From: Morchella semilibera
Lineage: Eukaryota; Ascomycota; Pezizomycetes; Pezizales; Morchellaceae
Reading direction: 5' to 3'
Assembly: GCA_009192285.1 (NCBI GenBank)
Contig: WBVU01000004.1
Location: forward strand, 3,928,001 to 3,992,000
Length of the DNA stretch: 64,000 nt
A program made the position numbers and the translations under genes. Within the stretch, counting starts at the first letter, position 1, and each line of letters opens with the position of its first letter. This document shows positions 1 through 64,000 of this stretch, piece after piece. The notes beneath the pieces are model-generated. The model was given only the letters and a program-made list of their open reading frames with translations. It made no database searches and was not told where the DNA came from.

Positions 1-347
1 CATGCAGCTACATGTACTCTAGTCAGTATTGAGGGAGCAGGGTTAGGGTTTCACTTTACAAATGCCGAGGTTAAAATAAAAACCGGCATCCGGCATTCAT
101 TTTGGAATGCCTATCCGCACGCTGTTGAATAGGCGCTTCCCTGGATAGGGCCAGTGATCTTCTGGTTTCACCTGGGACTGGTATGCTCGACTTGGACCCG
201 CATGATATGATATTTTTATCATAATAATACTATAAACAAGAGAAAGACGACCAAACACCATCAAAACAGACCAAAAATAAAAAACAAAAGCAGAACCGTT
301 AATACCCCCTCCCTTAGTTTTTTTTCCCCCTTCCTTTCCCGACCCCA
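1..347. other. 3' flank of the FAD monooxygenase gene, no gene seen
   Basis: No coding region is supported here. The stretch holds one TACATGTA palindrome (9-16), a short telomere-like GGGTTAGGGTTT (about 45-56) and an A/T-rich segment just past the monooxygenase stop codon that probably includes its 3' UTR. Confidence 0.6.
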
Positions 348-1819
348 TTACAACATGCTATTTACATTCCCGTCATTCTTGAACCTAGCCCACGCCGTCT
401 CCACCTCCGCAAAGGCATCATACCCAAACAGGAACTTTTGAAACTCGGGGTCCCTCCACTTGTTCGGGAACCCCGGCTTCAGCTCGTCGCGCAGCAGCTC
501 CGCGTCGCGCGCCTCCTGCGCCGGCCCGTTGTGGAGGTGGAACACATCCCTCTGGTGGGTGCTCGCCAGGACGATCCTGGTCGTGCGCTTCTTGCGCAGG
601 CCCTCGTACGCCGCCAGCAGGCCCTTGAGCTGGGCGCGCTCCTCGAGCTTCTCCAGGAGGCCGCCGAGCACGGCGCCGTCCTCCACGGCCATGGCCGCGC
701 CCTGCGCAAGGTACGGGAGCGTGGCGTGGCAGGCGTCGCCGAGGAGCACGAACTTGCCCTCCGGGTGCAGCCACGTGTCCATCTCTCGCGAGTTCTGGAG
801 GCGCCATTTGGACACCTCGTGGACCATGTTGAGGAGCTTTCCGAGGCGGGGGTCCCAGGTCTTGAAGAAGTCGCGGACCTCCTCGGGGCCCGTGGTGACG
901 ACGTTGACGTCGGCGGGCAGGTTGTCGGGGCAGAGGAGGACAATGTTGTAGAGGCCGCCGCCCTTGAGGAGGTAGCAGGCGGCGTGGGCGTCGGGGCCCA
1001 TCCAGAAGTTGATGGCGGGGTCCTCGGTGAGTTCGTTCAGCTCGGGGTCCTTGCGCATCTCGTCGGCCTTGACGATGATGCGGTAGGCGAGGTCGCCCGT
1101 GAGGTGCGGGGGGTCGGCGCGGCCCATCATCTCCTCGCGGCAGCGCGACTTGAGGCCGTCGGCGCCGATGACGAGGTCTGCGTGTATGGTGGCGCCGGTC
1201 TTGAGGGTGACGGAGGGGGCGGAGAAGTCGATGGAGGTTACGCAAGAGTTGAGTTGGACTGGCACTCGTTAGTCTAGTCCGTCCACGTTGATATGGGGGG
1301 GGGGGGGGGGAAATACTCTTGACACCAAGATCGCGGGCCGCCTGCACCATGGTGTTGTGAAAGTCTGCACGGTGGACGTGCCAGTAGGGGCCCTTGTACA
1401 CCTCCTGCGTGTAAGGGACCAAGTTCTGCGTCGAGAGGATCTTTCCGTCCTTGTATCCGCGCAGCATCAGGGCCTTTGGCACCACCGCGTGGTTCTCCAT
1501 CTGCTCCTTCAGGCCCCATTTTATCAAGATCCTGGACGAGTTTGGGGGGATCTGGATTCCTGCACCGACCTAATGGTTGTTAGTGTTGTGGCATGGATTG
1601 GTAGTGTTGTATGAATTGTGGGGAAGTATTGTGAGTGTGGGGGGCATGGATTGGAATTGGGTTGTTGTAATGTTATATGATTGTGCTCACCTCGCCGAGA
1701 GCAACGGCCTGCTCGAGGATTGTGACGTTGTGGCCTCCGCGACGGAGGGCAATGGAAGCTGCGAGACCGCCGAGGCCGGCGCCAACGACGATGACGTTGA
1801 GCTGAAGTTTTGCTGGCAT
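348..1819 (-). CDS. FAD-dependent monooxygenase, salicylate-hydroxylase-like (3 exons)
   Basis: Exons are complement(348..1264, 1317..1569, 1691..1819), giving 432 aa. The introns are 52 and 121 nt; phases agree at every joint, and the donors are GTATTT and GTGAGC. The family uses FAD and NAD(P)H to hydroxylate aromatic or related small molecules. Visible motifs are the N-terminal Rossmann segment VIVVGAGLGGLAAS (residues about 9-22), the central ADLVIGADGLKSR (about 157-168) and the FAD-ribityl GD motif GDACHATLPYLAQGA (about 303-317). Length is normal for single-domain members. The substrate cannot be read from sequence. The second intron contains a run of 16 G (plus strand 1295-1310), which explains why the reading frame looks interrupted. 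The start at 1819 is the conventional one, placed just before the Rossmann fold. The same frame stays open upstream to an ATG at 2116, so a longer N-terminus is possible. The ZZ-finger gene lies divergently upstream. Confidence 0.9.
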
Positions 1820-1842
1820 TGTCAATGTCAATGGTACTGAGT

Positions 1843-2116: not shown

Positions 2117-3189
2117 AGTCGGAAGGGGGGAGGGGCAATATATCTATAATTCTCTGGTCTGTGGGAAAGTAAGAGTATAGTGTAGCTACATGTTAGTTGG
2201 GACATCACCATCCCATCCATGCAGATGCATAAACACGACCAATTGATCCAGACGGGGAGTCGAGGGAGGAGTGCACCCCCGGAAATCCCGGCACTCTCGC
2301 TCAACGGCCTCTGGTTGGTCGGGCAAGTGTTTATCCGCGGTATATCCATTATCCATGAGGCTGATATGAGTTGAGGCTCCATCCCCCGCAGAAAGGCGCC
2401 ACCATGAACCCCGGATTCAGCAGGGGTGGAGATCAATATGCACCGGATGAAGGGCTCGGTAGGTGTCTTTCGAGAAAAGCCAGATTGTCATGTGGGTTCG
2501 TTACGGGAGAATTTGTAATGTAGTATACTACAACCCCGCCCCGAAACGAGTTTCCCCATATCCTATTAACGTTCAGTGATCGCTGCATAAGTGATTATCC
2601 TGGCCGTGACGTCGGTGTACATGTATGTATTTACGCGCAGCCGGGAAAAGGATGTTCCGCTGGCTGTCCTGGCTGGATGGGTGGGGTGCAAGCGAGAGAG
2701 AGGGCTAGGGTTGCCATGGCTGTCACGGGCTGTCACTCGTGGGTTGAGTATCTGAGGGAGTATCACTCGATACAGAACCGGGTGAGAGCGGGTGAGTATT
2801 AACCACTGTCTACCGGTGTAAGACTCGGGTGTGGATACATGTATACATGTATACTCTCTATGTCTGGACTGGACAGATGTTCCCCACCTCTCTACAGATA
2901 CATGTCCACTCTCTACGTGCGGTGTGTAGTACGTAGAGATGCTGCATACGTACAACCTGATAGATGTCCTTCTCTCCATCCCTGTATTACATATAGCTAG
3001 AGTGTATCTGCTATTACCTCTCTTGTATGCACAGAGTGCATCTACCATAGTTGCATCTCAATGTCATTGATCCCCGAGTGACAGCCCGTGGCACGCAGCA
3101 GTCCGTGGTTACACGGTAGATCCCCTCACATCATCGCATCGCACATCCATCTACATCCATCTATATATACACTATACACTAATATAAAC
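2117..3189. other. divergent intergenic region, monooxygenase / ZZ-finger gene
   Basis: No gene is supported. The region separates two divergent genes, so it should hold both promoters. It carries three TACATGTA palindromes (2618, 2836, 2844) and a TATA-like run (about 3160-3180) close to the ZZ-gene ATG. The short open frames here have no recognisable content. Confidence 0.6.
2618..2851. promoter_or_regulatory. three TACATGTA palindromes in a divergent promoter region
   Basis: Perfect 8-bp palindromes start at 2618, 2836 and 2844; the last two abut. They lie 340-570 bp upstream of the ZZ-finger ATG and 800-1030 bp upstream of the monooxygenase start. A regulatory role is inferred only from their window-wide over-representation and placement. 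Confidence 0.3.
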
Positions 3190-7811: not shown

Positions 7812-8934
7812 TTTCCACTGGCGCGCTATATCTACCCTGCCAGCCTACTTACATGCTAGCTGGGACATGAATAATGCTCCCCGTACTGGCTGCGTAGGTT
7901 TACTACAGCGGTGCCTATGAAGTTTTGGGACCCCACCATGACAAGAGTAAGTACATGTATATAAGTGGAAATACTGCTAAAGATTACAAATATCAAAAAA
8001 GAGTTCTATTTTGGATATCCTTGATCTGTTTTCCTAACTTTGTGGTTGTATAAAGTACCATGACAATTAATTCCAGCCAACAAACGATCTACTGAATCAA
8101 CAGAGAAATACCAGAAAAATAAATGTATAGAACAGAGTCCATTTTACCTATACTGGAGGTCTTGCAAATATGGGTTTGTGGTTGGTGGAATTAAAATCGA
8201 GTGCATTGCTATGTATGTGGCTCCGGCAACTCCCTAGACACGGCTATACTAGTCTGTCAATGATGGCCTACATAGGGATTTGCATAAGGCATCTATTATC
8301 CGCACAGTTACAGTAGAGAGGCCCCCAGCTAGAAGGCTTGCTGCGGGACAGGAGCTCGCGCTTGAAGTCTGTTCTGCAGCTTTGAATAACCATTAAGGGA
8401 GAGGGATGATTGATATATTATTATACTACGGGCAGCTTTGTATATTTTCATCCAGCTTCGTCCGGATTTTTTTGGGGGGAGTTATCGGCTGGGCATGTGC
8501 AGATGTGGATGGGGTGGGAATTTTTTTTGGAGTAGACTGTGTGGAGGGGTGGGAGGTAGGCGGTGCGTGGTAGTTGGGATGGAGGTTGAGGTTGAAATGT
8601 TCCAGGCATGGATGGGGGATTACGTATGGAGGTAACTACTGCAAAAGGGTAGATACTTATCCACCGAATCTCAAGATAAAGCATCAATTCAATTAATCAC
8701 CGTGGTTACAAAGCTCATCATAAATCTCATAAATGCCACAAGTCTCGAGCTACATATGATCACATCAAACGTCAAACAGGGCGGTAGAAAGCTTGGTATT
8801 GGGTGGAAATTAATTCGATATAAAACACTAGTTCCTAGGGATATCATAAGGTTAGTATGTAATAACCGCCGGACCGGCCAGCTGCTGCGTGTGTATCGTT
8901 AAGAGCCCTGGACATGCATGTATATATATATGCG

Positions 8935-13154: not shown

Positions 13155-14908
13155 TTATTCCTGGCCCCGGGCCCTCTTAATAACAGGCTCCCTTGGGATA
13201 CCGCGATGACGAGCGAATGTGGGTAAAAAGATAGAACTGGCTCCAGTCAACTTTTGGATAAGGTTCCAAAGCTTGGCCCCCCAGGAAAGCTGGGGAGAAG
13301 TCACGTCAGCTGGAGACTCTCCTGGAAGTGAAAGTAAATTTTGAATCTTAGGCAAGAGATTTTGCTTCATTTTCTCCCCCAAACCCTCTTCCGCAAGCGC
13401 TTTAAACACCTCGCCCAGGTCAAGATTATCTGAATTGTGGTCGTCGCCGGCCCTACCCTCCGGGAAAATGTGGTGAAAGAGTTTGCCGACAACAGAATCG
13501 AGGCAAATGGGGCTCATGGCAGCATTGTAGATGGCCTCATGAATATGGGACTTGGTAGTAAACCTAGCACTGCCAAGCGAAGCCATCTTTCTAGCGTAGT
13601 AATTGCGATATTCTTCAAGTTCCTCTGGAGAATTTTCAAATTCCTGTTCGGGATAGCCATACATCACAGGGTCCCAATCGCGTGTAAGCCATGCTGGATA
13701 CAAACGGCACCCGATCCACTGAGGAGCAGTTTGAACGTTGTCCCAGTCGATAATTGCGGTAAGAGTCCCGTCCTCAGATACAAGGAAATTTTGACCACCA
13801 AAGTCGGGATGAGCAAGCTCGAATGATTCTTTACCGTGAGGACTTGGAAGGGGAAGATTTTCGATCATTATTCTAACCAACTTATGTATTCCGATATCGT
13901 ACCAATCAGCATCATCTGGGAGCTGCTGGTCATCGAGCAAGGAGTTTAAGTAGTCCCGGGAGCTATCGAACGGCCCAGTGTTCTTGAAGACAGCACCAGT
14001 ATCCGCCTCCGCGGCATGCTGCTCCATCTCTGCCTGCTGATCAAGGATATTTAGTGGGCCAACGGTAGGCGAAACAAACAAATCCGATCGGGGATCTTGC
14101 TCAAACTCAAGCATTCCAATTTTATCAAATGAAAATTGCGTTAGCTGTGACATGGCGGCGGCAATAGTGTCCAAGATCCTATGTCTACGGTCTTCGAGAG
14201 GAGTTGGGCCAGTCTCATCAAACCAGATTTTACACACAGGGGTGCCTTCATCGAACCCCATGATGGTGTACGGCGAGGAAAGCTCATTTTCGCTTGTAGG
14301 GTCGAAGCTAATGATGTCAGGGATTGGAATTGTGGTGTTTTTACGGATGAAATGCATGGTCATAACCTCTGACTTTAAACGGCGGGCACTAGATCCATCC
14401 CGGCTCTCTGAAGGAAGTCGTAGAACCCACTTAACACCATCGGAGAAAACCAAAACATGAACCAAGTTGAAGGACCCACATAGTGGGGGAGATATCAAAG
14501 TACAGGTGGCTTTTTCAGTCGAAGGCGATACCGACCATTCCTGGTGGGTGCGAAGAGCCATAGAAATTATAGTCTCTGGTCGGATTCTGGTAAGTAGCGA
14601 AGCAAACCTGGAGAAGGAATCAGTGGACCCAGTGGAATCAGTGGATCCGGCGGAGTGGGTGGATCCGGCGAGTGAGGCATGGGTGGGTAATAGAGTAGGA
14701 GTCTTCACTTCAATGACAGGAGCTGTGAGATAACCCTGTTAGCTGGCTCCGAACAGGGTGAGGTGGAAAGGGGATGTAGCATAAAGGGCTCACATTGAGG
14801 AGGGGGGGCTGCGGGAAGAGTCAAGGCAAGGGGAGGTGGGGGCTGACTCGAACCTTGCTTCGTATCATCCAGGAGAGGCTTGGTCCCCACTGTATACGGG
14901 GAAGGCAT
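13155..14908 (-). CDS. aminoglycoside-phosphotransferase-like (APH) family protein, 2 exons
   Basis: Exons are complement(13155..14722, 14794..14908), giving 560 aa. The 71-nt intron has donor GTGAGC, acceptor TCTCACAG and an AGCTAAC branch-like site, and the joint is in phase. The second exon alone has no suitable upstream ATG, so the ATG at 14908 is chosen. The protein has the protein-kinase-like fold: a nucleotide-loop region CGSFNLVHVLVFSDGVKWVLRLP with its Lys (about 120-142), a catalytic loop HPDFGGQN (His343, Asp345, Asn350) and a metal-binding IIDWDN (Asp364). Fungal members are abundant and mostly uncharacterised. They probably phosphorylate a small molecule, and drug resistance should not be assumed. 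The N-terminus carries low-complexity Pro and GSTDS repeats. A small Cys-rich gene lies divergently upstream. Confidence 0.88.
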
Positions 14909-16007
14909 TTAGAAGAAGTATTTATCGAGTTACTGCCTTTGGAGCCGAGGCGAATATTTTTCGTATGGTTGATCGAGGAGTGTGGTAGGAGGGAGTTGCT
15001 TTCACAGTCGAAGGAGGGTGTGTAAATGTTGTCTGTTGTGTGCGTGATTCTAGAGAGTGGGGAAGTAGGAAAGAAGGGATTTGATATGGTATTTAAGCTT
15101 AAGAAAATTGCTGGGCCTTGGCAAACATAAGAGAGAAAAGAAGAAACAGGCCGTACGCGTTTTAAGTTATATAGTTAAGCGGATGAAGAGCAATATGGGG
15201 TTAAGAGTTGAAACAGAAAATCGTGCTGCGGCGCAGTTCAACTGGGACTAAATAGGTCGTGTAAAGTGGGATGTTACTACTGCTGTATATATATTGAGGG
15301 CTTCAGTGAAATTAAATTGGGGGCCAGTAGCTATGATAGGTCTACGTACAAACTTGAGTGCAACATTCAAAGATGCGCACGCCCACTGTCACTGTGCTAT
15401 AGTTCTGGATGGCGCATTCAACCTTAAAAGTTTGGTTTCAAGGGCCAGGTTTTCATTCAAAACTAGTGCATGGGGGGTTCGAAAGTTGAAAGGTTGAAAA
15501 TAAAATGTGGAGCACATCCCTTGGGTTAGGGTTATTACAAAACTACATGTAGTTGCGAGAGAAATTAAAAGTAAGCAGTACTGTGAACACAATAATTCAA
15601 CACATGACTATTGGAGATTAAGTTGCAAGAATGAGCATCGAATCTATATATATATGTAATATATGATGGATCCCTAATAAATTAGGCACAGGATAGAAGG
15701 TATCACGCAACTGGCAGCTGGTGGCATGATGGGTATTCCTACTGTCCGAAAGGGACTACATGTAGACGTAAGTTCTTTGGGATCCCCTCTCCGTTAAATG
15801 TAGTTCTTTGAAAGAAGAAATACATGGAGTTAATTCCTTGAAAGAAGAATGTACCCGATTGGAGTGGAACCGAGCCTATTTAAACAAGTTTTTCGGCCTC
15901 AATTGATCAACTTATATCCATTGCTAATTCCACATACTGAGACAGAAATAAACAAGTAATAACAACCAACTCAATACCTTATAGTAATAAAACACTCCGT
16001 GAAGGAA
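14909..16007. other. divergent intergenic region, APH gene / small Cys-rich gene
   Basis: No gene is supported. The region holds two TACATGTA palindromes (15544 and 15757), a telomere-like GGGTTAGGG (about 15525) and a short TATATATATA stretch (about 15640-15655). It should contain both promoters. Confidence 0.6.
15544..15764. promoter_or_regulatory. two TACATGTA palindromes in a divergent promoter region
   Basis: Perfect palindromes lie at 15544-15551 and 15757-15764. They are 636 bp upstream of the APH ATG and about 250 bp upstream of the small Cys-rich gene. Their function is inferred from recurrence only. Confidence 0.3.
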
Positions 16008-16332: not shown

Positions 16333-18499
16333 TGTGCTCCTCATGGGCCGCATTTGGATAGAAGAATCCGATCGCAGGCTAACCCGTGAACCAAGAAAAG
16401 CGATATCGTATGAACTTCGGAGAGCTATTATTATATTAGGGTTTACGGAGCACAATAGGTCTTTAGGACGTTTACTTGCTATTGATCTGTTCTTTATTTT
16501 TCTTCACTCTCCACTTGTTGGCTTTTAATTGAATTCTCTCTTATCATTTTTCTCTTTGGGCTATTTTCTTTTCTCCATCTAGATCTTCGTCTCTATGTCC
16601 ACTTCTATTCTCTCGGCCTTATGTCTCTTGCTAAGCCCTGTTTTTGCATCCACCCCTCCTCTCCGCCAGCTCTTACCAAAGTTCCCCCGAGCTGACAAAA
16701 ATCCACCAAATATGTATAGTAACCTATAGAATATGAACATCAGCTTATCAATCCCCCCCCCAGACCACGGGAGGAAACGCCCGGCCCGAGTAGCATACCC
16801 TTACCAACAGGAGGGTTCAGGCTTTTAGAGAAGCCACTTTACCCGTAGATCTGAAGAAGGATTAATCTTAAAATTGACTGCAGAACACTAACTCACTAGA
16901 ATGCGCATGCAACCGATAGTGACTTTAGTAACTCCCTCATCAACCTCCGCCTACAAAGGCTCATCCTACCTGTCCGTACATGCGTGCTAACGCGCGAGTT
17001 CGGCTTCCTAGATATCTGGTTAGAATCGAAAGGATGAAGAACTCGGGCCCTAATTTTGGCTCATTCTACTACATGTAGTTCATGGGGTTTCGGGCACGGG
17101 TGAGGTGCATGCAGTTATATACTACGCGTGCCATGACTCACTAGCCCATGGCCAGAAGTCGATTTCTACTAATCTTATGTAACCAGGCGCAACTAATTGA
17201 TCCCTATGCATCAGGGAACATAGAGACACAATCCATGCATGCCGACTTCTCAATTAATCACTAATCTAGCTAGAATAGATTTCGACACCCTTGCCCTCGT
17301 AATATGAGGGCAGGCGCATAGGAGCACATAAACACGCTGATAATATATAATTTATGAATTCTTGAAGCTTGATGGGATGTCAAGTGACACTATATAACCC
17401 CGAGTTTAGCCTGATAAATTCCACCATCACAATATTTCCGTTATGGCACGCGCTCCTCGCTAATTTCCTCTTCCACCTGTAGTTATTCAAGGGACCAGCT
17501 TCCGTTTCAATAGGAATCACCAGCGGCAGCTAACGCATTTGATCTCAGGAGAAGACTATATAAGAAGCTAGTCAGATTTCGCTTCTGCGGCGGGGGCTTG
17601 GAGTGCCCAACTATTCAATTCATGGAGCGCCTAGACATTCTCACGTGATTGTTTGCTGCGGGGGTTGGCCCAGTGATTATACTAAAGGATCACAAGACAA
17701 ACGAGACTGGTAGAACATGGCGGATGGGGTGTGGAGGTGTTATTTAGGGCTCTTTGAAAAACCAACTTTGTTCGATATTTCAGGCTTCTCGCCTTCGCAG
17801 CGCGGGAAAGCACCACACTCGGGGGGCAGGCAGGTGGTGTTAATTGGTTATAACCATATTGGGGTAGGCGCCGCATGGGTATTGGTAGGTTCGGGTAGGG
17901 GGAGGTTTTCGTGCCAGTTACCTAAACTTCTAGTTAGGGCCCATGTTTACGCCCCTTGGGCCAGCGGTTTGGCTCCGCTCGATCTGTGAGCTCTAAGGAA
18001 GAGCGCTATATATATGGCTATAGGTGTATAAGCTACATGCGCGTCCTAAAGTAACTCGCTATTTTGCATAATATCTTTCGGGTCAAGTGGTGCTCTCGAC
18101 CTGGCGACCGAAAGGCCATTGAGTGAAAATCCTACAGTACGAATAAAGCAGTGTAGTAAATAACACTAACGTATAACCATATATACCTCTTTTTCTGCGC
18201 AAAGATAGCTAAGGACAACGGTGTGGTACTACCAGGATTTTGTCGGGTATTTCTATATGTTAGTTTAGTCCTCACCTTCTCTTTCAAAAGGACTCTATAA
18301 AGAAAATGATTATTATCCAAAGTACATGTACGTATGTACTTACTACCGTGAAAAAAAGTGGGGGGGGACACTTTCTTTCGGGCTTTTCATCCCCCCTCAA
18401 ATAGTCAAAGAAACATTAGTAATTCTCCTCAATCCAAATGATAATGTCTGAAGTTCCTTAAGCTCGGTTACGAGGTACTGTATTGGATTCGCGGGGGGT

Positions 18500-25837: not shown

Positions 25838-27490
25838 GAGTACTAATTATAACTGCACTGCAGGGCGATGTTGTTACTCTACTAGATCTAGCATAACCCG
25901 TGAGGCATAAATGGAACCAAGATTCTGATTACCCTGTCTTAAATCGAGACTTGATCGCCGACTCGCTAGAACCTGCTAATACATGTAAGTTACATAAGAG
26001 AGGGAGGGTCGTTTCTCATGCGCGACAGTGGTTTTTTGCCACCGGTGTGGACTGTAATTAACTAGTGTACCGCGTGACCGCGCCTAAAACACAATTTTAT
26101 ATGATTACTTCACACTGAACAATCTACTCATTAGGTAGTTTTAATTCAGTAAATACTACCCTCGATCTATTTATATTGTATGAGAGTGACAAAATTGAAG
26201 GTGTGCTTCGCATAATAAATTTCAGACAAGCGATGCCGTTGGATAATTAAGAACCCCCACCCCTCAATGCCTATTATATCTCGTAACCCTTAATGACACC
26301 TCGGCACCGGAACACAAAATATCACTCGTATAAGGCCTGGTCGGTGTTAGTACGTTCATTGACTAGCTGAATACAGCCTCGTGTACTGATCGATTTTTCA
26401 GTACTGGGGTGTCCACATTGTGCTTTTCTGATTTTGCCCCCCAAGATGATCTGATATCGATGAGGGTAAGTGGTGCACATCAATAACTTATCGGTGAAAA
26501 CTCCCAACCATCGTGGAGAGATGCTCAATATTAGAATTATCATTTTTGCTAGTTATAATCGACAGTAAATGTGAATACCCAAGGCTTTCCTACATGCATT
26601 AGGGACCTTCGCCTGAATAACATGAGGGGTAATCGTAAAGAATGATTCTAGAGATTGGTGCTCTATAGATTAAGCATGGTATTCGAAAAGTGCTATATGA
26701 TATCCATCTTTCATGCGTTACTTATTGAGTATTTCATTTGGTTTTTAAAAAATCCTTTAGGGTACCAATGTCCGACTATAGAATACTTCGGAGAAGCAAC
26801 AGATAATCGATTGATCACAGCCTGCATACGTATCACATGAGGTGTGTCAGCTATTGATGCGTTTTAAGGCCTGCCTCTGATGTCTGAAAAATCTCAGTAT
26901 TGGCACAATAGAAACAGGACTAGAATTCTGGGGTGTCGCGATCGGCGGTCTTGGTCCCCATGTGTCGCATTGTTTGGTCGGGAAAAATGTGTTATTTTAG
27001 GAGACTGCTAAAATGCAATAAGTTTAGATCTTGCGAATAGTATCGAATATCGCGATAGTTTTCAAATCTAGTTATAGTATACAGTGATTTCCGGGTCTGT
27101 AGAGATAGAACTAACTAGGTGATATGGGGGTTTGTGGGCTCGCCGGTTGTCGGTAAATATGCTAAACCTTAATTTTCCAGTCCTTGAGATGAATCGCCCG
27201 CCTTTGTTTAAGGCGTAATTAGATATTACACGATTAATGGTTTCTTTCCTTTGGGAGTCAGGATTTCAGAGGGCAGGGAGCGTGTTAGGCCACAGGGGGA
27301 ATGATATATATCTCCATCCACCCACCACTACGGAGGAGATCTTGTAGGGGAAGTAGAGCTCCAGCTTGGAACATGCATAAAGTTTTCTAGCTGGGTCGAT
27401 TGTATTTCCCAATCGCTTTTCGAGGCGCTTATCTTCTCCAATTGCAATTCCTATATGCAAATAAAGAACGGACGAATCCGCGGCGACATA

Positions 27491-28044: not shown

Positions 28045-29025
28045 TACATGTACAGGCTGTAGATATTCCTTTTTGTAAACTGTATATATATGTACTCGTT
28101 TACGAGTACATATGCCTGGCCTGCTCATAGGGTAAGATAACGAGAGGCTAGAGTTTTCCGAGAGGCGGGCACTGTACAAGCAGCGCACAAATGACACCGT
28201 ACTGGATTGCCAAGAGTTGCGTAAGGAAGTATAGCGGGCACTCTATCTGATAGACGGTCAGTCCGAATTGCGACCCGAGACACTTAAACCCTTTATGGCA
28301 ACGTGATGAATATAACGCTAAATAAGTCTGAGCTGTAGTTTCCAGCATGCGTGACAGTTTGTGACACTTTTTCAATTCTGGGCGCTTTTTATAGCACGGG
28401 GTTTAAGTGTCTCGTTGCCATTCGGATTGACCGTCTATCAGAAATACATGTAAGTACCTACATGTAGCTAGGTACTGTCTCACTGAGTATTGGACACTGG
28501 CCGTGTTGACAGGCAGGGGTTTTTTTGGCCAATAACTGGGCTTGGCTATTTCTCTCTGGTGAGATCCGTCAATATATACCCAATATCCATCCATCATCAC
28601 CCCGTGAACAACCTATGAATCGGGATTCAATGTACCTACCATAACTGTAGTAATAAAGTGATATATGATATGTGTTAATATAATACGATCGACAACATCC
28701 ATGCATACACATATGCATGGCCAAGATAAGGTTACATGTATGTTCGAGGTCGGCGTGGCAGGTGACACCGACCGGGAGACTCCGAATGGGAGTAGACCCA
28801 TTAAAACACTTTCTTCGTATTCGATCGATTTATAATTTAGGGATTGAATTACGTGGTTTTATATGCCAGGTCAGGCAAAAAAAATCTTGGTTTACAAATT
28901 AAGTAAATCCCTAAACCCACTGGTTGCACCGTCGTGGCCAAGCCCACATTCCCTGCCCCCTATCTTCCCCCCATACCAATCATCATTCATCATCAGCCCA
29001 TGAACATAACCGGTATATACATGTA
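28045..29025. promoter_or_regulatory. cluster of five TACATGTA palindromes upstream of the DUF3433 gene
   Basis: Perfect palindromes start at 28045, 28445, 28459, 28733 and 29018. The last is 136 bp upstream of the DUF3433 ATG. Five copies in under 1 kb is the densest cluster in the window. A role in transcription is inferred, not shown. Confidence 0.35.
28247..28441. mobile_element. 195-bp MITE with about 43-bp terminal inverted repeats
   Basis: The left arm starts CTGATAGACGGTCAGTCCGA and ends ACTTAAACCC. The right arm ends in the complement, with about four mismatches and a short indel. The core is about 107 bp and non-coding. It lies 0.7 kb upstream of the DUF3433 gene. Confidence 0.75.
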
Positions 29026-33094: not shown

Positions 33095-35469
33095 AATTCT
33101 ATTTATTTACCTTGAGGTATCTATCTCTAAGTTTGAATGTATTTATTTGCTTGCGCTATCCACAAATGGAGAATTGAGTCTTATGCTTAAGGGTTTCCTA
33201 GAAGGGATTAATACAAGTTCGATTATTTCCCCGGGATTGTATACTAAGTATTAAGATTCGACGTATTAGGTTGTGCCCCTGTTTTAATGAACTTGGCTTG
33301 ATTGCGTGAGGATTAATATGTTCTATTTTCCCTATAGTAGTGCTATAGTACGTATTCTGGCTCCCCACCTGGCCTAGTATTTACTACGAAAATGCGGTAA
33401 AATTAGTTATTCTGGCTACGATTCTGGTCTAACCGACAAGTGTTGCACAATCCCGTGTTGCTACATATATACTCGCCCAATTGAAGATAAGGAAAAAATA
33501 CGGGTGTAGGTAAAGACCTTGATCTGGGGTTTCAAAGTCATACAGCTCCCCCACTATTTGATGAATGGAGTTACATGTTGGAATCCGAGGTCTTTGAGGT
33601 ATATATTTCATTTCGGACAGTTTCGTGGCTTAGTGAAAGAATTGAGAGCTGAGTAAACTGCAAATTTCGGGAGGACGGCTGTGTCCAGGAACTGTATGAT
33701 CCAATAGCTACATGGGGTTAGTGTGATTAGGGAAACGCTGTGTATAGTCATGCTATCACGGGTGTATTCAGGATACTGTACTTCATGCCCTTGCCTTCGG
33801 AGAGCGGAAGGTCCAAGGTTTTGCCGTAAACTATGGGCTGCATGTATGTCTCAGTTATAGGAGTAGTAATAGAATACTGTACTACGGTTGTAGGGTAAGT
33901 CTGTAGACAGTTAAGTTACTATTAGAGACTTTACGCAAGCGGAGCCGCGGCCATGGCAGCTCTATTTTCCGGTAACCTCATTGGTACCTGGCTGTGCCGG
34001 TCTCACATTCCGCAAACCATATAACCAGAAAATAGATCCCCTATATCACAGTTGTCTATAATTAATTACATGATTCTCTGAAACCCTCCCCGCCGTACGG
34101 TTTCACACCCCCCCCCCCTGTTTTCCATACATACATGTATTTTGGTCGCTGTATGGGGCGCGAGGAGATCTATATTTGATACCTGTCCGTATTACTGCAC
34201 GTATTGTATATGGGCCGTGGGCAGATGTGCCCAAAGCAAATGCGCATTACATACAATAATTTTATGTGTGAATTAGTAGTTCAGCAGTATATTGGTAATA
34301 GGTTTAAGTGACAATGATTATTGCGAGGAATGAGGAACGAAGAACTCTCAACATACTGGTTTTAACCTCGCATCTCCTATAATAGTGGGTTAGAGTTTGG
34401 CGTGAAATTAATTAATTGATAATAAAACTCCACCAACTTTAGGGTGGGCAGATATTCTGTTAGCTAAAGATAGCACGTTTGGGTATCGAGTGATAAGTTA
34501 TGATGATTATTTATAATGACGGTCTCCCTACCAAATTGAGCAACTGAACTACCTTCATCAAAATACATATGTGCACCGAGCTACCCCTACAATAACGTGG
34601 TAACTCATTATACTAGGTTTGGGTAGTGTCAGGTTGGAGTTAGGGAAGCGGTAAGGGGAGGGTATTCTTGATGACCCAGAATCTTTTGCGGATTAGACCT
34701 ATAGCTACTGTCCAAATGTATTTGTATAAAGATGGTCAGTGCTCAATGTGGCTTGCAGAGCTAAATTAAAGAACTCAAATGTATCCATAGAATTATAGGG
34801 ACTTGAACATTTCAATACACGGTTCGATAACTGCACGACTTGAGCCGAACATGTCGTATTAAACCCGAATCACAAACACTTTTGATGAGTGGCTGTACAT
34901 ACAGCCATGTTCGAAAGGTTGTGGCACCCTACTATATTGTGTCTGTTTATTAATTCTAACCCACCAATAACCATATCCCCTGCGCATACTTAAAACAGAT
35001 AGGTATGGCTGTAATGAAGATATTGTAGCTCTCTGTTATTATAGTCATAGTAATGGGAGAATTAGAGAATAGAAGAAACATCCTCGTACTTTTGACCGGG
35101 GGTGCCAGGACTTTTCGAACGGGGCTGTACAGGTAGGAGATGCAAGTGGATAGTGCGTGACCGTCGAGTGTTCTACCATGACAACATTCACAGCTATCGG
35201 TTAGAATATTGTTGAGACCCCACGAACGAGTCGTTGCTTGTCACGGGATGCGGAGTTAATCCGTAGTGGCCATTGATTATCACTCGGTCACGAAGAATCA
35301 CTCGGTAGCTATTTGTTTACAGCACACAATACATGGAGCTATTTTAGCGAGAGTAAACTGTAAAATCTTGGATAGATTAATAAATGTCGTTAGGAAATGT
35401 GGTGGATATTTGCCAATAGCAACCTGTAGGTTGGAAGAGCGATGGGCAAACAATAGATTTGGGTAGGGA

Positions 35470-43308: not shown

Positions 43309-43663
43309 TATGGTGCGGCGCGTCTTAAAGGTGACATGCTGGTATCTGAGTTGGAACACTCCGGTTGCTTATGGATCAATAAGTTCCTTAGATTCCAGCT
43401 GAAAATTAGATCTTGGCTGTAAGTGTGTAATGTAAGGTATAAATGGGTATAATACTGTACCAACTGGCGCTTTTTACATACAAAAGCAGGTAAATGGCAT
43501 TGATTATAACCTTTTAAACAGACAAGATATCAAGAATCTAACAGATCAAAGTCCTCATATTAGGAATATCTACAACTTAGCCTATTAGATTTTTAATATC
43601 CTGTCTGGTTAAAAAGTCATAAGCAATGCAATTTATGTCACCTTTAACGTGCGCGGCACCATA
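43309..43663. mobile_element. MITE family A, copy 2 (355 bp, TA-flanked)
   Basis: It shares the TGGTGCGGCGCGTCTTAAAG terminus, the internal TATAAATGGGTATAATACTG block and the inner inverted repeat with the copy at 24029-24404, with many substitutions and small indels. Both ends are at TA. Its right terminus carries GTGCGCGGCACCA, slightly degenerate. Confidence 0.8.
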
Positions 43664-47305: not shown

Positions 47306-47313
47306 TACATGTA
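47306..47313. promoter_or_regulatory. TACATGTA palindrome 15 bp before an ATG
   Basis: This copy lies just upstream of the membrane-protein start codon at 47328, so it would be in the 5' leader or core promoter. Confidence 0.25.
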
Positions 47314-49117: not shown

Positions 49118-49119
49118 TA

Positions 49120-49175
49120 ACGCCAGTTACCCGGAAGTGGGTCGCGACGGGGAAGTAGGCCACCAGTGAGGCAAC
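49120..49175 (+). repeat. left terminal inverted repeat of the pogo element
   Basis: It starts ACGCCAGTTACCCGGAAGTG and ends GAGGCAAC. It pairs with 51266-51319 with several mismatches and one or two indels. Confidence 0.9.
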
Positions 49176-49221
49176 CGATACTATATTTTTTGTATACAAC
49201 AATTACAACAACATACTTCCG

Positions 49222-50835
49222 ATGGCACGGGTTAAAGAGAGACAGGTTCCGGAGGAGGAGTTGCGTATTCTAAAAGCTCTAGACGCCCTACACAAAGACC
49301 CTAAACTATCTATCCGAGCTGCTGGACGGTCATATGGGGTACCTAGGACGACACTTACAAACAGATTTAACGGAAAAACCAAATCGAGAATTGAAGCCCA
49401 CAAACACCAACAATTGCTTACCGATGAGGAGGAAAAGGCTATTGAAAAATGGATTGGCCGATTAGATGATATTGGAATTCCACCAAGGCTTACACATTTG
49501 CATGATATGGCGGCTTCGGTCCTACAACAAAGAGGTGATGGATCGGAAACACATATAGGACAACATTGGATTACACGTTTTTTAGATAGACACCCAGAAA
49601 TTGCCTGTCGGCTTTCTGCACGGATTGATAATGAACGGGCCGCAGCTAATAATCCTAAAATGATCAATACATATTTCAATCGATTGTCGGAAGTGAAAAG
49701 TCGATATAAGATTTCCCCTGACGACACATACAATGCAGACGAGACTGGCTTTGCAATCGGAGAAGCTAGACAGACAAAGGTTCTAGTACGTCGTAAACGC
49801 CGAACTTCAAGAATACGACAGCCCGGAAATCGTGAATGGGTTTCAATACTTGAATGTGTATCTGCTCGGGGTAAAGTGCTACCTGCCTTTATTGTTTATA
49901 AAGGTGAATCACATCTTCTTGGTTGGCATGATTATGAAGAACGGGATGAAGCTACATTTGCTTTATCAAAGACAGGCTGGATTAACGACAATTTGGGTTT
50001 TCAATGGCTCAAAACACATTTTAATCCATATACTTCAACAACTAATAATCGATTACTGATTATCGATGGACATTCCTCACATTTAACGCTTGAATTTATC
50101 GAATTTTGCTTTGACCATAATATTCACCTTCTCTGTCTTCCACCTCACGCAACTCATTTGCTTCAACCTCTTGATATCGGATTATTTTTGCCTCTCAAAC
50201 AGTATTTTTCAAATCTGCTTGATTTGTGGACAAGAACACATCCATATTGCCGAATAACCAAAGGAGATTTTTTTCCTTTGCTTACAAAAGCTCGAAAATC
50301 AACATTTACAGAAAAAAACATCAAGTCCGCATTTGCTAGTGCTGGAATCGTTCCTTTCCGTCGCCACCGTGTTCTTGACATCCTTCAACACCCAATAACC
50401 AATATTGCTAAACCCAACAAACCTACCGATCCTGGAGCAAGCATACCTAATAACGCTAAAGATATACAAAATATGAAAACAACTGTTGAGAAGTCTGACA
50501 AATTAGAAGACGTGAAGACAATGTTTAATCTACTAGCTAAATCTGCAGCTATAGCATTTGCTGACCTCGCAATTGCTCGCGAAACCATCCATCAATTGAC
50601 AACCTCGCAAAAAAAAAGCAAAATCGATAAGCGACAAATCAGTAAAGCTTTAGTTATATCAAGATCAGATCTTGATAGGTTGCGCAAGCTCCGCTTGCAG
50701 CAAGAAGAGAAAAAGAAACAGGCAGAAGTCAAGCGTTCACAAAAAAGGAGAAACAGAAAAGAAATATCTCCTAGGAGTAAGAAACTCAATCTCATACTAG
50801 CTTTATTAATCATTACTAAGTATTTCATTAGTTAG
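49222..50835 (+). CDS. pogo/Fot1-family DDE transposase, 537 aa
   Basis: A single intact frame starts with ATG 49222, about 46 bp inside the left terminal repeat. The N-terminus has a psq-type helix-turn-helix (residues about 12-52, LSIRAAGRSYGVPRTTLTNR) and then a CENP-B/Tc5-type DNA-binding domain (about 60-130, ending HWITRFLDRHPEIACR). The catalytic DDE domain shows Asp173 in YNADETGF, Asp282 in IIDGHSSH and Asp318 in LLQPLDIGLF. The 35-residue spacing between the last two is the D35D pattern of Fot1-like elements. The C-terminus is Lys/Arg-rich (about 480-525). The protein should bind the terminal repeats and catalyse cut-and-paste movement into TA. Confidence 0.95.
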   Translation: MARVKERQVPEEELRILKALDALHKDPKLSIRAAGRSYGVPRTTLTNRFNGKTKSRIEAHKHQQLLTDEEEKAIEKWIGRLDDIGIPPRLTHLHDMAASVLQQRGDGSETHIGQHWITRFLDRHPEIACRLSARIDNERAAANNPKMINTYFNRLSEVKSRYKISPDDTYNADETGFAIGEARQTKVLVRRKRRTSRIRQPGNREWVSILECVSARGKVLPAFIVYKGESHLLGWHDYEERDEATFALSKTGWINDNLGFQWLKTHFNPYTSTTNNRLLIIDGHSSHLTLEFIEFCFDHNIHLLCLPPHATHLLQPLDIGLFLPLKQYFSNLLDLWTRTHPYCRITKGDFFPLLTKARKSTFTEKNIKSAFASAGIVPFRRHRVLDILQHPITNIAKPNKPTDPGASIPNNAKDIQNMKTTVEKSDKLEDVKTMFNLLAKSAAIAFADLAIARETIHQLTTSQKKSKIDKRQISKALVISRSDLDRLRKLRLQQEEKKKQAEVKRSQKRRNRKEISPRSKKLNLILALLIITKYFIS

Positions 50836-51265
50836 GAAACCCTCGCATAACAGAGACTCTCATACTGCAATACCATTGGCACTGGCATATGATCGCTCAC
50901 GCGATACGAATATTCAACAATATTCCTTGAATACCATCACGGAAAACACCCTTGGTACAGATCACACTCGAGTTCCACTTGGCCCATGCAGGTTTAATAT
51001 AAGGAATATGTAATATTCTTTCCTTACTACAGGTTAGTGTCTAGTATAATTAGTTTTTGGCTTGCAGGTTTTAATATCTTCTAGCAAAGTAGGTAGCGAG
51101 GGGGGTAGCAACATGAAAGTAGAACCACAACCAACTCAGCTTTTCTATTCTTTATTTTTTGGGCCTTAGAAAGATCCTTTAGTTTATTCTAGTTTAACTC
51201 ATATTACTCTTTCTGCTATTATTCAGTTGTTGTTGAATTAACAATCTTTCTTTACATTTGGCTCA

Positions 51266-51319
51266 GTTGCCGACCGTGGCCCACTTCACCGTCGCGACCC
51301 ACTTCCCCGTACCTGGCGT
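51266..51319 (-). repeat. right terminal inverted repeat of the pogo element
   Basis: Its reverse complement begins ACGCCAGGTACGGGGAAGTG and ends GGTCGGCAAC, matching the left repeat. TA follows at 51320-51321. Confidence 0.9.
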
Positions 51320-51335
51320 TAGTGGTCTCCCGCCG

Positions 51336-53710: not shown

Positions 53711-54891
53711 GGGAGTGAGAGCTTTTCATTACCCAGCATGAGGTGCCGTTTGCCGCCCAGGTTGTCCAATCGCCGATGTGGTGCTAGAGTACCAACGGAG
53801 GGGGGTGTCTAAGGTTCTACTGTAACCGTTCGTCTGGCAATGTTTCAGCATCGGGTTCATAGGGCATGTGTGGGCCAGGACGAAACCAAATCTCGTACTG
53901 ATGCTAATGTACAGTATGCAACTCTCCATAAATATGACCTCTCGCATATGACCACCATACGACTACCCATATACGAGGCCACATATACGGGGTCTTTGTG
54001 TGAACTTATGTCCTTAAACAAATAACGACATATATATATTACTCCACATATATGCCCGACTCCATACCGGGAATGTAGAAATAACCGGGATAGTGGTATA
54101 TGGAGATGGAGACGGGGGTGGAGATGAAAGTGGCTGGTTATTTAAATACCGGCAAGTTAATCCAAAGCAGGTCTAGCTAGAATAGGACCGGAGAGATTAA
54201 GTGAGTATTGATTTATGACGTCAGAAAATCCTACCCACATTATGATTCTCGATAGATAAATTGATAGCGTACTGGGGTTCTTGCCTGCTACAAGTGAATA
54301 TTATCTTTAACTCAATAATCTTTACTAGCGAGATATGTTATGCTACATCCTCACCATCAGTTGCCGCCCATGATGCACTTTACCTTTAGTATGCGCATTG
54401 TCATGTTGAAGCCCAGACAGGACTAGCATACATACAAATATACTAAAGCATCGAAAATAAATGAATAGGACACCTCGGCCTCTACATCTCCACATACGTC
54501 ATACCTATTTTCCCTACACACTAGAGCAACCTTTATACATGTACCTGATAGCCATTATGTCAATTCCACCTCTCCCGTCTCACCCAGCACTTATTACATT
54601 GCTTTAATGAAATGCAACCGTGTAGTTTCCTTTACGTTGCCAACTGTCCACTCCCAACCAAATCTGTCTTTTCAAAATATTCACTTCGCCCGTACACGTT
54701 ACCACAATTTCTAGCTATAAATCTCTATCTTACTCCCCCCCTCTCCGGCTCTCTTTCATCATTCCAACTCACCACCCTATCCTCTCATCATCTCCTTATA
54801 AAGCAAAAACTGCTGATAGTGGGTTAGTTCTCTGCTCCGATTTTATTTCTTTCTCAACTAATAAGCGCTTCCGACACCGTCAATATATAGA

Positions 54892-56155
54892 ATGAAAACC
54901 CCCAAGAAGTGTTCCATCTGCAGGATGTCCTTCAGCGATGCTAGTGCATTTGCATACCACAGACGGGCAAGTAACCTCCAAGCTCTATTTTATATCCTTA
55001 CTTATATGTATCTTTACTAGACTACCCATCAAACAACCACAACTGTAAAAACCCGTAACAACGAAAACTTGATTTTCCATAGGAATAACATAAATGGCTG
55101 TTTTACTTGCCCATGTGGTTATCGTTCAAACACACCCGATATGGTTCGGAAGCATGCTTTAGAATTCAACCTAGATCATTTTGGGAACCTCCCTACCGGT
55201 TCCCATATTACTCCAGGGGGACTCATGGTCGCCAATTGGCCCCTAGACAATACCGAAACAGCCAAGAGAGCTAAAAACCCCGTTCAGCAAGATGGAGTTG
55301 GTCGTGGTCAAGTTACCGGAATGAGCTCAGCTGCGCCAGTCCCACCACCTCATATTCCCACAAGCAATCCCTTTGCCTTTGCATCAGCCGTTTCCGCTGA
55401 ACCCGAACAGCGCTCCTATACACCCCCGGGTTGTCCTACAGGTTATCTTTTGATCCTTCCCAACATTATGCTCTAGAATCCTCAGGACCAGTATTTCAAC
55501 CGTCTCTTCTAGGTACGCAAGTATTTTGATACAATCTAATGATATTTATTCATCGCTAACCCCTATCAATTCCATAGAGCTCGGTTCAAGCCGCCTCTTC
55601 TCTACTGTGTCTGAGCGTAGCGAGGCCGCCGCACCCTCTTTGCAAGCTACGCCGTGGCAAGATCTTCTATATGGTACTAGCAATACTGGGATATTTAATG
55701 GCGCAAATCCTGCGGCATTTAAACCCTTCTCTGATTCCTCTTCATCAACCGTATCACTCCCTACTCATGGCCGTGGAGATCGGGCAATGCCCTCCCCACC
55801 GATATCTGATATCTCCCCTACTATTGAACCCCAATCCTCTTCTCTCAATCTCTATAACGAGAAAGGCAAAGCAGTTATAATTGATTGTGTTACACCCAGA
55901 ACCATTGGTGCTGCTGTATCATCACTTACCCCTTCTCGACGCGCAGAATGCTTTGGACTGTACTATCTCGCAGCGTACAAGGTTATCATTTGCCTTGATT
56001 GTCAGTCAGGACTGGATCCTCAACATGTTTTTGTCCATCTCAAAAGGGAGCATCACCTACCACAGAAAGCTAAAGACGATCTCGAGCAGCTGGTTAATGA
56101 ACTTTCACCTCTTCCTGTCAACCNGTTTGACATGCGATGCCATTTAGGTAAATAG
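54892..56155 (+). CDS. C2H2 zinc-finger protein with OrsD-like domain (multi-exon, frame problem)
   Basis: ATG 54892 opens a C2H2 finger, KCSICRMSFSDASAFAYHRR. A GC-AG intron (54967-55020, donor GCAAGT) would lead in phase into a second finger-like unit GCFTCPCGYRSNTPDMVRKH. A Pro/Ser-rich middle follows, then an intron at 55513-55577 (donor GTACGC, branch CGCTAACC). The C-terminal part, YYLAAYKVIICLDCQSGLD then VFVHLKREHHLPQKA, resembles the zinc-binding start of the OrsD (DUF3505) domain. Between 55084 and 55513 the frame must change once, near CACCCCCGGG (55430-55440); a missing base in the C5 run would do it. An N at 56124 lies in the last exon, and the frame ends soon after, shorter than usual for OrsD proteins. 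DNA binding is likely; the biological role is unknown. It may be a truncated or pseudogenised copy. Confidence 0.5.
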
Positions 56156-60970: not shown

Positions 60971-61139
60971 GCAGAATCTCAGGAATAACGAATCGAACTG
61001 GACTGGAATATTAGACTTCGGATTGGTCAAATGCCTGCTGAGCCCCAATCCGACAAAGCCAAAGCGTAACTTTTGTTGTCTTGACCAATAGGTAAGTTGT
61101 ACTCCAGCCTAGTCCGATTTGTTATTCTCGAGATTCTGC
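60971..61139. mobile_element. 169-bp MITE-like element with about 42-bp terminal inverted repeats
   Basis: The left arm begins GCAGAATCTCAGGAATAACG. The right arm ends TTATTCTCGAGATTCTGC. A second inner inverted pair is GGATTGGTCAA / TTGACCAAT. Non-coding; no clear target duplication. Confidence 0.7.
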
Positions 61140-62569
61140 CGTATTTCGACGATCACTAGCTTGTAAACATTGCGCATGCTCCGCAACCTAGCAGGCCGGC
61201 TTGGACTAATGAACATAGACAATTGGGCGCCAGAAACAAGGCTGGCCTTTGATCGCTATGCTAATATGCTAATTGGATACATAGCAAAAAACTAGAGATA
61301 ATCTCCCTCCCTCTCAAATACTTGACCACACACAGCTTACTTTGATCAACACAGCTACCTACTCAATATGAAGCAAGTAATTACTTAGCCTTGAGACGTT
61401 TCTAGCTTATAAAGGCTTTAGGGAGGTGGCAACTAACCTGAATCCCATTTTGGCTGATCCTGGAGCTGAAGATGCATGCACTTGTATATGAGGCGCCTAG
61501 GACTAGAAGCACTTGATCCCCCAAAAAGGGTGAGAACCCCAATACTAAATCTCATTTAATCAAAATCTGGGCTCAGTCTTCGATCGTGATTCTCGTACGA
61601 GTACCCCTTTATCTCCATCACTAACTGAGTGGGTTTCAGTTTCCGTCACGAGACATGTGGACGCAGGTCTCAATATTTGATAACCTCGGTCATATTTATT
61701 CTAATTATTCTCTCTACACTATGTTTTGTTACCTGATCTAGCTGGTAGTACAGAGCCATAAATGTGCACATATCTAACATCAGCCATAACCGTAACATTC
61801 TGGTAACTCCGGCCGCCAATGCCTTGCATATCACAATGTTGAACTGCAGTACGAGGCATGCAATGGAGGCTCTTATGCATTTAGTTTATCCTTGCTTGCA
61901 TGACCATGGGCAGCTTCCTATCTACTATCTACTATGTACTAGATTATGACATTTTCGCACTCCTTGGCATAGCAACCTTATTGGTTGAGAGTGACGGAGG
62001 TATTGACTAAGCACGACACATCAAGACCTGAATTGTATCACAAGGCAATGAAAGGTTAAACTGGCGGGAATTGGGGTGGGGAGGGAGGGCCGAAGGCTCC
62101 CATAATTACATGTACGTACCGTAGAGAGAGGATTAGTTTACCGCTGTTCCCCAAAATCTACACAACTCGCGGTCGCGAGGTGGAACCCCTAGTGGGTATG
62201 TGCTCAGAAATCATTACGCGCAGATATAAAATATTCGCAAGTCGATTGGGCTGTATCCACCAACAGTAAGACAGCTAGCTCCAATTGAACCCCCCCCCCT
62301 CCCCCTGGTACAGCCCCGTAGTACTGATTGGTCAATATATATGCTCCATGTGAACTTGTTCATTCAGTTCCTTATATGTAGGGCGCCTGTTTTCCTTGCA
62401 TCGTATAATTCTTCGAGCATACGAAACAATCCCGCCAAAGAAACCCCCTACTCTCCAGAATATTTCAAAGTATTTCTCCGTAACTGATCTATCAACCAGA
62501 GCTCTTCTTTTTCTTTCCACATTCCCGAGTATCACAGGTACCTCCTACGGGTTGTGGACCCTGGGCCTC

Positions 62570-64000
62570 ATGCCCGCCGACGACGTCACGCTCCCTTTAA
62601 TCGAGAAATTTGAACCTAAAATGAGTGACCGCCAGTACTGGCGTCCCTGGACTCTCCGCAAACCTTTACTGATCTCATTCATTGGGCTTTGCGCCGGGCT
62701 ACTTGTTGCCAACGAGCTCGCTAACTTTGGCTGCAAACGACATGGTAGCTGCCATGTCTTTGGCTCCAGGGAAAACGGTCATATGCCCAGGCTCTCCACA
62801 TTTGTGTACAGGACACTCCCGGCTATACTTGGTATCACTTTGGGTCTTCGATGGTATGCGACACATTATGATATCATCCGGCTCGAGGCATACTCCCAAA
62901 TGAGCGCAAAGTACGGTGCCAAAGCCTCGAACTCACTCTTCCTACAATATCCGTATGAGTTTGTCTTTGCTCTACCTTTCAAGGCCTTACTGAAGGAGTA
63001 AGTTATCAATCAATATTCCCGCCAGCTAGGGGATGCCTAAGTACTGACCGGGGTTTATGATAGACACTACGTTGTGGCCTTATCGTCGTCAATCCTCTTC
63101 ATAGTGAGCTACGGGCTCGTGCCACTGGTTTCGAATATGTTTGACGATACCGTCGGCAGCACCTCCATCTTCGCAAACGCCAGCCGGGTCGAGTTCAACT
63201 CAACGGCCCGTCAGGTACCTGCAAACTTCACCTTCTCAGCCTACGACTTGACATGGAGAAACGGCTCACTTCCCCCATTCACGACCGAAGACTTCTCGCT
63301 ACTTCCCGTGAAGTCACTGGACCAGTTCCCGGTGTTCCAGTCAGGAGAGGACTGGACCTTCTTGACAACGCTGTACGAGGCCGATCTTGAATGCGCCGAG
63401 GCACACCATATTAATTACACCTATAGCTACTGGCCGGACAACAAGCACCTGGTCGTTGAAATCTTCCAGAACGAAAGTAGGGATTCAATTGTGAGGGTGT
63501 GCGATGCCCTCGGCCAGGAGAGGACCGATGAATTTGATCTTATCCTTGAGAATGAGTGCACGGAACTTGCGTCCTTCGTCGCGCCGTGGGCGGGCCTTTT
63601 CGGGCAGAAAGTGGTGGCGTCGCCGACGTTCATGTTTGGCTGGGCCTCTGGTTCACCTGCTGGTTACCCAGGAGTCAGCGCCAACGTCAGTTCCCCAGCT
63701 CCACTTAATATGACGGCCATCTTCTGCACGACGAAATACTACACTCATACTGTCAATGCCACCGTCTCAATGCCCTCGGGGAGGGTGCTTCCAGACGGTG
63801 TACATCGTATCGGCGAACGGGAGGAGATTGAACCTCTTAAGGGCTTCACCGAACTCATCGCCGGAGAAACCCTACCTGACAACAACTTGTGGTTGGAGGA
63901 CGTCTTCGTGTCCACACCGGATCGGGCTGATACCATGATTACTCCCCTCCGTTTCGGGTACCAGCCTGACAAGATCGTGGATCTCAAGTATGACCTTGTG
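62570..64000 (+). CDS. second DUF3433-domain membrane protein, 3' part outside the window
   Basis: Exon 1 is 62570..62997 and exon 2 starts at 63064 and stays open to the window end. The 66-nt intron has donor GTAAGT and acceptor TGATAG, and it is in phase. The frame is open upstream of 62570; ATG 62570 or 62621 (MSDRQYWRPW) are the likely starts. The domain order copies the gene at 29.2 kb. There is a WRP N-terminal motif, the span LLISFIGLCAGLLVANELA, the second span FVYRTLPAILGITLGLRWY, SLFLQYPYEFVFALPFKALL, then after the intron HYVVALSSSILFIVSYGLVP. The glycosylated outer region contains PPFTTEDFSL, YEADLECAEA and TVNATVSMPSGRV. The family is of unknown function and membrane-located. Homology between the two genes is clear but distant. 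Confidence 0.88.

Follow-up and report, generated by a model that had tools for sequence, protein, structure and literature searches.

Why does one palindromic octamer, TACATGTA, recur so densely in the non-coding DNA of a morel? The question was raised by a 64,000-nucleotide stretch of the Morchella semilibera genome (contig WBVU01000004.1; C20:3928001-3992000 in our numbering, hereafter the window), for which the original prediction had listed 19 perfect copies of the octamer against one or two expected, had placed them mainly between genes or upstream of gene starts, and had suggested either an undescribed cis-element or a replicated motif. We analyzed the octamer in the window and across the 56.8-Mb genome (23 contigs), and the best-supported reading of the results is that TACATGTA is probably, although with considerable room for doubt, the excision scar of Tc1/mariner transposons, to be divided as TA-CA-TG-TA.

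According to this model, an element with CA...TG ends would insert at a TA dinucleotide and duplicate it, giving TA-CA...TG-TA. On excision, one strand would be cut by the transposase at a point two nucleotides into the element; if both terminal dinucleotides were then retained during end joining, the product would be TA-CA-TG-TA, in which the original TA has been lengthened by 6 bp to TACATGTA. Each octamer would thereby record one departed transposon; such scars would persist in non-coding DNA, where they would decay via point mutation, and coding sequence would either be cleared of them or never retain them at all.

Over-representation of the octamer

All 19 positions listed for the window proved exact, and the expected number was sound as well, since dinucleotide shuffles of the window contained 1.07 copies on average and 5 at most, and 0 of 100 shuffles reached 19. 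Genome-wide, TACATGTA occurs 22,206 times, i.e. once per 2.56 kb, compared to 3,723 times for the reversed palindrome ATGTACAT, a control whose count is itself partly inflated because TACATGTACATGTA contains it. Background expectations were derived from a 254-kb sample comprising the window and 19 of 20 10-kb stretches drawn from twelve contigs, the remaining stretch (L025) being left out as a near-identical haplotig (99.95% identity) of another (L024). This sample holds 72 copies, a lower density than in the genome as a whole, versus 4.0 expected under an order-3 model with the motif masked. The resulting 18-fold excess compares with less than 5-fold over the order-3 expectation for the runner-up palindromic octamer. 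Among 8-mers counted at least 20 times in the twenty 10-kb stretches, TACATGTA was also the most over-represented at order 1.

The proposal that composition does not explain the octamer is therefore borne out well beyond the window, as dinucleotide, order-1 and order-3 composition are ruled out as its cause by the shuffles and Markov expectations. Two other candidates were rejected: a single dispersed repeat family behind most copies (sequence that recurs within the sample makes up 8% of its bases and includes only 3 of the 72 sites) and a general 4-bp-phased TA pattern (TA-TA distance ratios of 1.09 at 4 bp and 1.06 at 8 bp with the motif and TA runs masked).

Exactness and possible decay of the octamer

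When one mismatch is allowed, the genome contains 60,359 matches to TACATGTA and 45,702 to the control. The 24 one-mismatch neighbours of the octamer thus total 38,153, and those of ATGTACAT, at 41,979, are more numerous, indicating that it is the exact octamer which is enriched. Such behavior recalls HIP1 of cyanobacteria, a highly iterated exact palindromic octamer that is common in coding and non-coding sequence alike, and a comparable function, e.g. as a methylation or chromatin mark, would fit the exactness, the very high copy number and the unremarkable neighbours of TACATGTA. We nevertheless regard a HIP1-like palindrome as highly improbable in view of the near absence of the octamer from coding sequence, its occurrence as insertion alleles and its transposon-target-like flank preference, all of which are described below.

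At the level of the sample, and relative to motif-masked order-3 expectations, the neighbours fall into two classes: those differing by a transition are doubled (72 versus 31.6 expected), and those differing by a transversion stay near background (71 versus 64.6). All four half-site positions show the transition excess, one of the words concerned, TATATGTA, being partly a TA-run word. Overall, the neighbour halo amounts to 0.69 of the excess of intact copies (bootstrap 5-95%, 0.37-1.09). A transition-biased halo is what many exact copies decaying through ordinary mutation would leave, whereas a protein-binding site would be expected to tolerate changes at particular positions.

Position relative to genes

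Coding sequence was predicted with a home-made hexamer model trained on 47 long frames, not taken from an annotation, which yielded 44 crude genes in the sample. Predicted coding sequence comprises 33.8% of the bases and 22% of all TA dinucleotides and is overlapped by only 2 of the 72 sites, in agreement with the earlier view that the excess is not a coding effect. Coding overlap of the one-mismatch neighbours is 2 of 42 for three of the four transition types and 5 of 11 for one transversion pair. Gene distance could be assigned to 59 sites: 23 fall in the 25.9 kb that lie no more than 1 kb upstream of genes (0.89 per kb), 16 in the 26.1 kb no more than 1 kb downstream (0.61 per kb) and 20 in the 68.7 kb at 1-5 kb. 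With these 44 crude genes, the difference between the two 1-kb flanks is not significant (p = 0.27). The octamer thus tends to occur between genes and close to them, with no clear preference for the upstream side. Accordingly, the part of the original prediction that placed it near genes and outside coding sequence stands, whereas the specifically upstream part is not supported, the apparent upstream concentration being mostly due to coding avoidance; a replicated motif comes close to what we find, and an upstream cis-element is unsupported by position.

These observations bear on the possibility that TACATGTA is bound by a TALE/Iroquois-like homeodomain protein and owes its spread through intergenic DNA to selection. 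A 2008 study by Berger reportedly identified the octamer as the preferred site of Irx/TALE homeodomains. The core sequence named as the Irx preferred site is identical to TACATGTA (PMC3520976). The same octamer is described as Phytophthora motif-1, found in 12,070 genes of three species and correlated with infection-time expression (PMC3520976), and as M93, with 4,150 occurrences in the promoters of P. infestans (PMC3597505); these thousands of upstream copies are interpreted there as a transcription factor site. A homeodomain site would also suit a palindromic, non-coding sequence enriched within 1 kb of genes. In the morel, however, the octamer shows no significant upstream specificity and no clearly tolerated positions, the transition enrichment being alike at all four half-site positions, and selection is not expected to build sites via exact 6-bp insertion alleles at TA such as those found in the repeat copies described next. 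We therefore consider this explanation unlikely.

Insertion alleles in repeat copies

The genome contains a dispersed tRNA-derived short interspersed nuclear element (SINE) with a recognisable tRNA-like part and tail modules, and two of its copies carry TACATGTA where others have TA. Using a pattern for one tail in which two TAs could each be followed by 0-12 additional bases and everything else had to be exact, we obtained 36 matches, of which 32 copies were kept after removal of three haplotig duplicates on C13 and one unrelated match. No insertion is present at either TA in 28 of the 32 copies. In the filled copies, CATGTA is inserted at the first TA at C20:733506 and at the second TA at C2:1973772, in both cases creating TACATGTA; CTCTA follows the first TA at C3:1403256, giving TA-CTC-TA, and the copy at C23:2358029 carries a CTACTG insertion. 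In three of these four cases, the inserted sequence is exactly 3-4 bases and a second TA. The 64 TAs of these tails thereby hold two octamers versus 0.3 expected at the sample rate, and an additional, less clean TA-to-TACATGTA case was found in another tail module (locus L065). Empty copies thus show a single TA where filled copies show TA, terminal nucleotides and a second TA, and a 6-bp insertion at TA in copies of a repeat points to transposon excision scars. As a separate observation, the tail modules of this SINE (L013, L109-L148) are interchangeable, and some of their junctions fall at TACATGTA.

A precedent exists in the nematode element Tc1, which has CA...TG ends and whose excision in C. 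elegans, as Eide and Anderson reportedly described in 1988, leaves the footprint taCATGta. The likeness extends to all eight bases, with the TA duplication placed around the terminal dinucleotides of the element. In contrast to C. elegans, for which taCATGta is mentioned as a footprint that Tc1 leaves only rarely (PMC3520976), the morel genome has over 22,000 copies, the octamer being the strongest palindromic one of the sample.

Flanking sequence and spacing

The only strong flank preference of TACATGTA is for A at -3 and T at +3. Genome-wide, A occupies -3 in 13,179 of the 22,206 copies (59%), 3,317 of the copies being part of TANNTACATGTANNTA, and in the sample it does so in 91 of 144 flanks compared to 29% for all TA. 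Sleeping Beauty, a Tc1/mariner element, has the target consensus ANNTANNT (PMC2756404). Close pairs of octamers exceed the prediction for uniform spread, and 13 of the 15 distinct gaps of at most 15 bp, among the matches listed and in the sample, equal 6, 8, 10 or 14. After subtraction of the 6 inserted bases, these gaps correspond to original TA distances of 0, 2, 4 and 8, as would be expected if scars re-form at the same or an adjacent TA.

The same spacing, together with TACATACATGTATGTA-like contexts and a 1.4-1.7-fold enrichment of TACA, CATG and TACT near the sites, could alternatively reflect cryptic simple sequence, in which slippage and palindromic template switching among TAC, CAT and GTA words would make the octamer. 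Slippage should, however, enrich one-mismatch and longer tandem forms, whereas transversion neighbours are at background, and most of the 84 flanks examined are mutually unrelated. A microsatellite-type origin is therefore retained only as a minor rival, and a rather improbable one.

Candidate source transposons

Excision scars call for elements with matching ends. At least 69 DDE_3 and at least 96 DDE_1 transposase matches are present in the genome, and we inspected five DDE_3 loci (L169, L170, L171, L172 and L173), all five of which exceed the Pfam cut-off for DDE_3 and four of the five that for HTH_Tnp_Tc3_2. At L169 and L172, perfect 20/20-bp CAG...CTG terminal repeats lie directly inside TA and enclose frames open from stop to stop (366 and 389 aa, respectively) with both domains; L169 matches the transposase of Sleeping Beauty, its nearest solved relative, at 1.1e-34. 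The repeats at L170 are likewise of the CAG type, with a possible TAGG extension, and for L173 no terminal repeats were obtained. L171 is a TA-flanked Tc1/mariner element with CTC ends and a second copy at L186/L187; its ends match the CTC scar at C3:1403256, for which a 3-base cut would give TACTCTA. When six further loci with predicted CAG ends were considered, four showed both ends, one a single end and one none, the ends on C9 being identical to those of L169 and the others agreeing with those of L172 at 15-17 of 20 positions. A 235-bp miniature inverted-repeat transposable element (MITE) with CAG...CTG ends, the non-autonomous E3, was examined in 20 copies (L149-L168). Elements that insert at TA and whose ends match the inner bases of the octamer are thus present in this genome, namely L169, L172, the further copies and E3. 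A pattern search for other CAG-type ends gave nothing firm.

The flanks of these CAG elements share the A at -3, which is found in 33 of 40 flanks of E3 and in 11 of 13 flanks of the other elements. E3 prefers the palindromic target ATG-TA-CAT and so often lands beside or within TACATGTA, 8 of its 40 flanks being complete octamers. At one of the SINE junctions noted above, in L148, an E3 end is joined to the SINE body at TACATGTA, and two other TA-flanked inverted-repeat elements (L023, 7880-8095; L028, 9728-9876) start exactly at the final TA of an octamer. E3 is not supported as the chief source of the scars, because its flanks carry G at -1 in 35 of 40 and T at -2 in 30 of 40 cases, versus 39 and 26, respectively, of 144 scar flanks. 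We infer a two-nucleotide stagger with full fill-in and a CA...TG family, perhaps now rare, as the maker of most scars.

Weighing the evidence for excision scars

Several results weigh against an origin of TACATGTA by excision. With respect to position, coding avoidance proves little alone, since other AT-rich words show it too: coding overlap is 0 of 52 for TATATATA, 211 of 2,454 for A/T-only octamers and 11 of 109 for TACATA. The -3 A is equally frequent in the control octamer (2,209 of 3,723, also 59%), 6 of the 8 control cases with -3 A in the sample overlapping TACATGTA, and in the transition neighbours it occurs at 0.36-0.40, close to the 0.34-0.38 of the transversions. The flank preference is thus not clear in the transition neighbours, which weakens the decay argument. 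The local enrichment of TACA, CATG and TACT mentioned above hints at simplicity around the sites, and for one of the two clean SINE-tail insertions (gatTAcatcc) a near-tandem duplication is an alternative reading.

With respect to the source, the more than 22,000 putative scars contrast with at least 69 DDE_3 matches. The G at -1 is present in 35 of 40 E3 flanks and 13 of 13 flanks of the other CAG elements (L170 excluded) and is absent from the scars as a preference (39 of 144), so that the living CAG families are not plainly the source. The 40 stretches of the MITE GGCGCGTCTTAAAGGTGACA (15.6 kb, 1,288 TA) contain one octamer, located outside the aligned part (L099), and the 20 E3 interiors (4.6 kb, 292 TA) contain zero. 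Over these approximately 20 kb, one octamer compares with 7.2 expected at the per-TA rate of the sample, a shortfall that stands unless most scars predate the GGCGCGTCTTAAAGGTGACA and E3 copies. The GGCGCGTCTTAAAGGTGACA MITE, whose aligned copies are free of internal scars, was therefore abandoned as a scar counter.

With respect to the cut, TACATA/TATGTA is another known Tc1 scar type and is only 1.6-fold enriched in the sample, no more than TACGTA. Likewise, TACAGTA/TACTGTA, the product of a 3-base cut at CAG ends, is only 1.2-fold enriched (35 versus 29.3). For Tc1/mariner transposases, the cut on one strand lies two to three bases within the element (PMC2170065), and Sleeping Beauty nicks three bases inside and leaves footprints equal to the overhangs (PMC7827188). 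Given the 3-base cut of Sleeping Beauty and the weak enrichment of its expected product, the 2-base cut is an assumption of the excision-scar model.

Features of the window and assembly

The octamers and transposon-related features of the window are collected in Table 1. The end type of the inverted-repeat element at 34900..35129 is one that would leave TACATGTA, whereas the pogo/Fot1-type element is not an expected source because of its AC...GT ends.

Table 1. Octamer copies and transposon-related features, in window coordinates
Feature	Position	Strand	Basis
TACATGTA, putative scar	9..16		exact match
TACATGTA	2618..2625		exact match
Two abutting TACATGTA, 8-bp spacing, as two scars in TATA would give	2836..2851		
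TACATGTA	7952..7959		exact match
TACATGTA	15544..15551		exact match
TACATGTA	15757..15764		exact match
TACATGTA	17070..17077		exact match
TACATGTA	18323..18330		exact match
TACATGTA	25980..25987		exact match
TACATGTA	28045..28052		exact match
Two TACATGTA, 14 bp apart, adjoining a TA-flanked inverted-repeat element (28251-28437)	28445..28466		
TACATGTA	28733..28740		exact match
TACATGTA	29018..29025		exact match
TACATGTA	34132..34139		exact match
TA-flanked inverted-repeat element, CAG...CTG ends, 230 bp, 19/24 terminal bases pair	34900..35129		
TACATGTA, sole window copy touching predicted coding sequence (close to the 5' edge of the segment)	47306..47313		
TA-flanked pogo/Fot1-type element, AC...GT ends	49118..51321	+	terminal repeats
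Pogo/Fot1-type transposase, open frame of 537 aa	49222-50835	+	DDE_1, HTH_Tnp_Tc5
TACATGTA	54536..54543		exact match
TACATGTA within a dispersed repeat module (TACATGTAcgTACCGTAGAGAGAGGATT...) related to tRNA-derived SINE tails	62107..62114		

In addition, the window contains two copies of a TA-flanked MITE of approximately 370 bp with the terminal inverted repeat TGGTGCGGCGCGTCTTAAAGGTGACA (24029-24404 and 43309-43663), the ends of which have 179 genome-wide matches at no more than 2 mismatches; a smaller TA-flanked inverted-repeat element (24248-24360) is nested in the first copy. Frames with an APH phosphotransferase domain (13155-14708) and an OrsD domain (55526-56155) were also present, and DUF3433 was among the protein domains found; OrsD and DUF3433 are indicative of filamentous ascomycetes. 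Telomere-like 10-mers, e.g. AACCCTAACT, occur 16-18 times in 200 kb (L009-L028).

With regard to the assembly, the contig pairs C9/C10, C12/C13 and C21/C22 share repeats at nearly equal coordinates, and the identity of L024 and L025 (C9/C10), 99.95%, extends over 10 kb with no mismatches; together, these features suggest that the assembly holds duplicated haplotigs. As a polymorphism test, haplotig pairs were useless for this sole pair compared, owing to the lack of mismatches.

Implications

For Phytophthora, the transposon-footprint reading is raised and set aside in PMC3520976. The Phytophthora motif neighbouring M93, M94 (TACCGGTA), may be what a CC...GG-ended element would leave; it is not enriched in the morel sample (1 versus 2.5 expected). 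In the titles and abstract openings covered by our literature search, which included impala, Tc3, fungal footprints and ANNTANNT, we found no description of TACATGTA as a genome-wide scar, and none of over-represented fungal palindromes. More speculatively, a single scar class might constitute the most over-represented complex octamer of the genome, with more than 22,000 intact and many decayed copies, and the Phytophthora TACATGTA might be the same thing, some scars possibly having been adopted as TALE-homeodomain sites; we put this broader proposal forward tentatively and hold it to be more doubtful than the scar origin itself.

If TACATGTA is instead a regulator site, this fungus would carry one exact site per ~2.5 kb, a situation equally worth explaining. 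If the excision-scar model is correct, a motif reported by de novo promoter searches as a conserved regulator site would be a transposon by-product, and such searches would need a footprint filter. The octamers would, moreover, provide a countable and datable record of cut-and-paste transposition, measuring how often elements left the genome, a quantity invisible from surviving copies, and would offer a test of how fungi repair transposase breaks.

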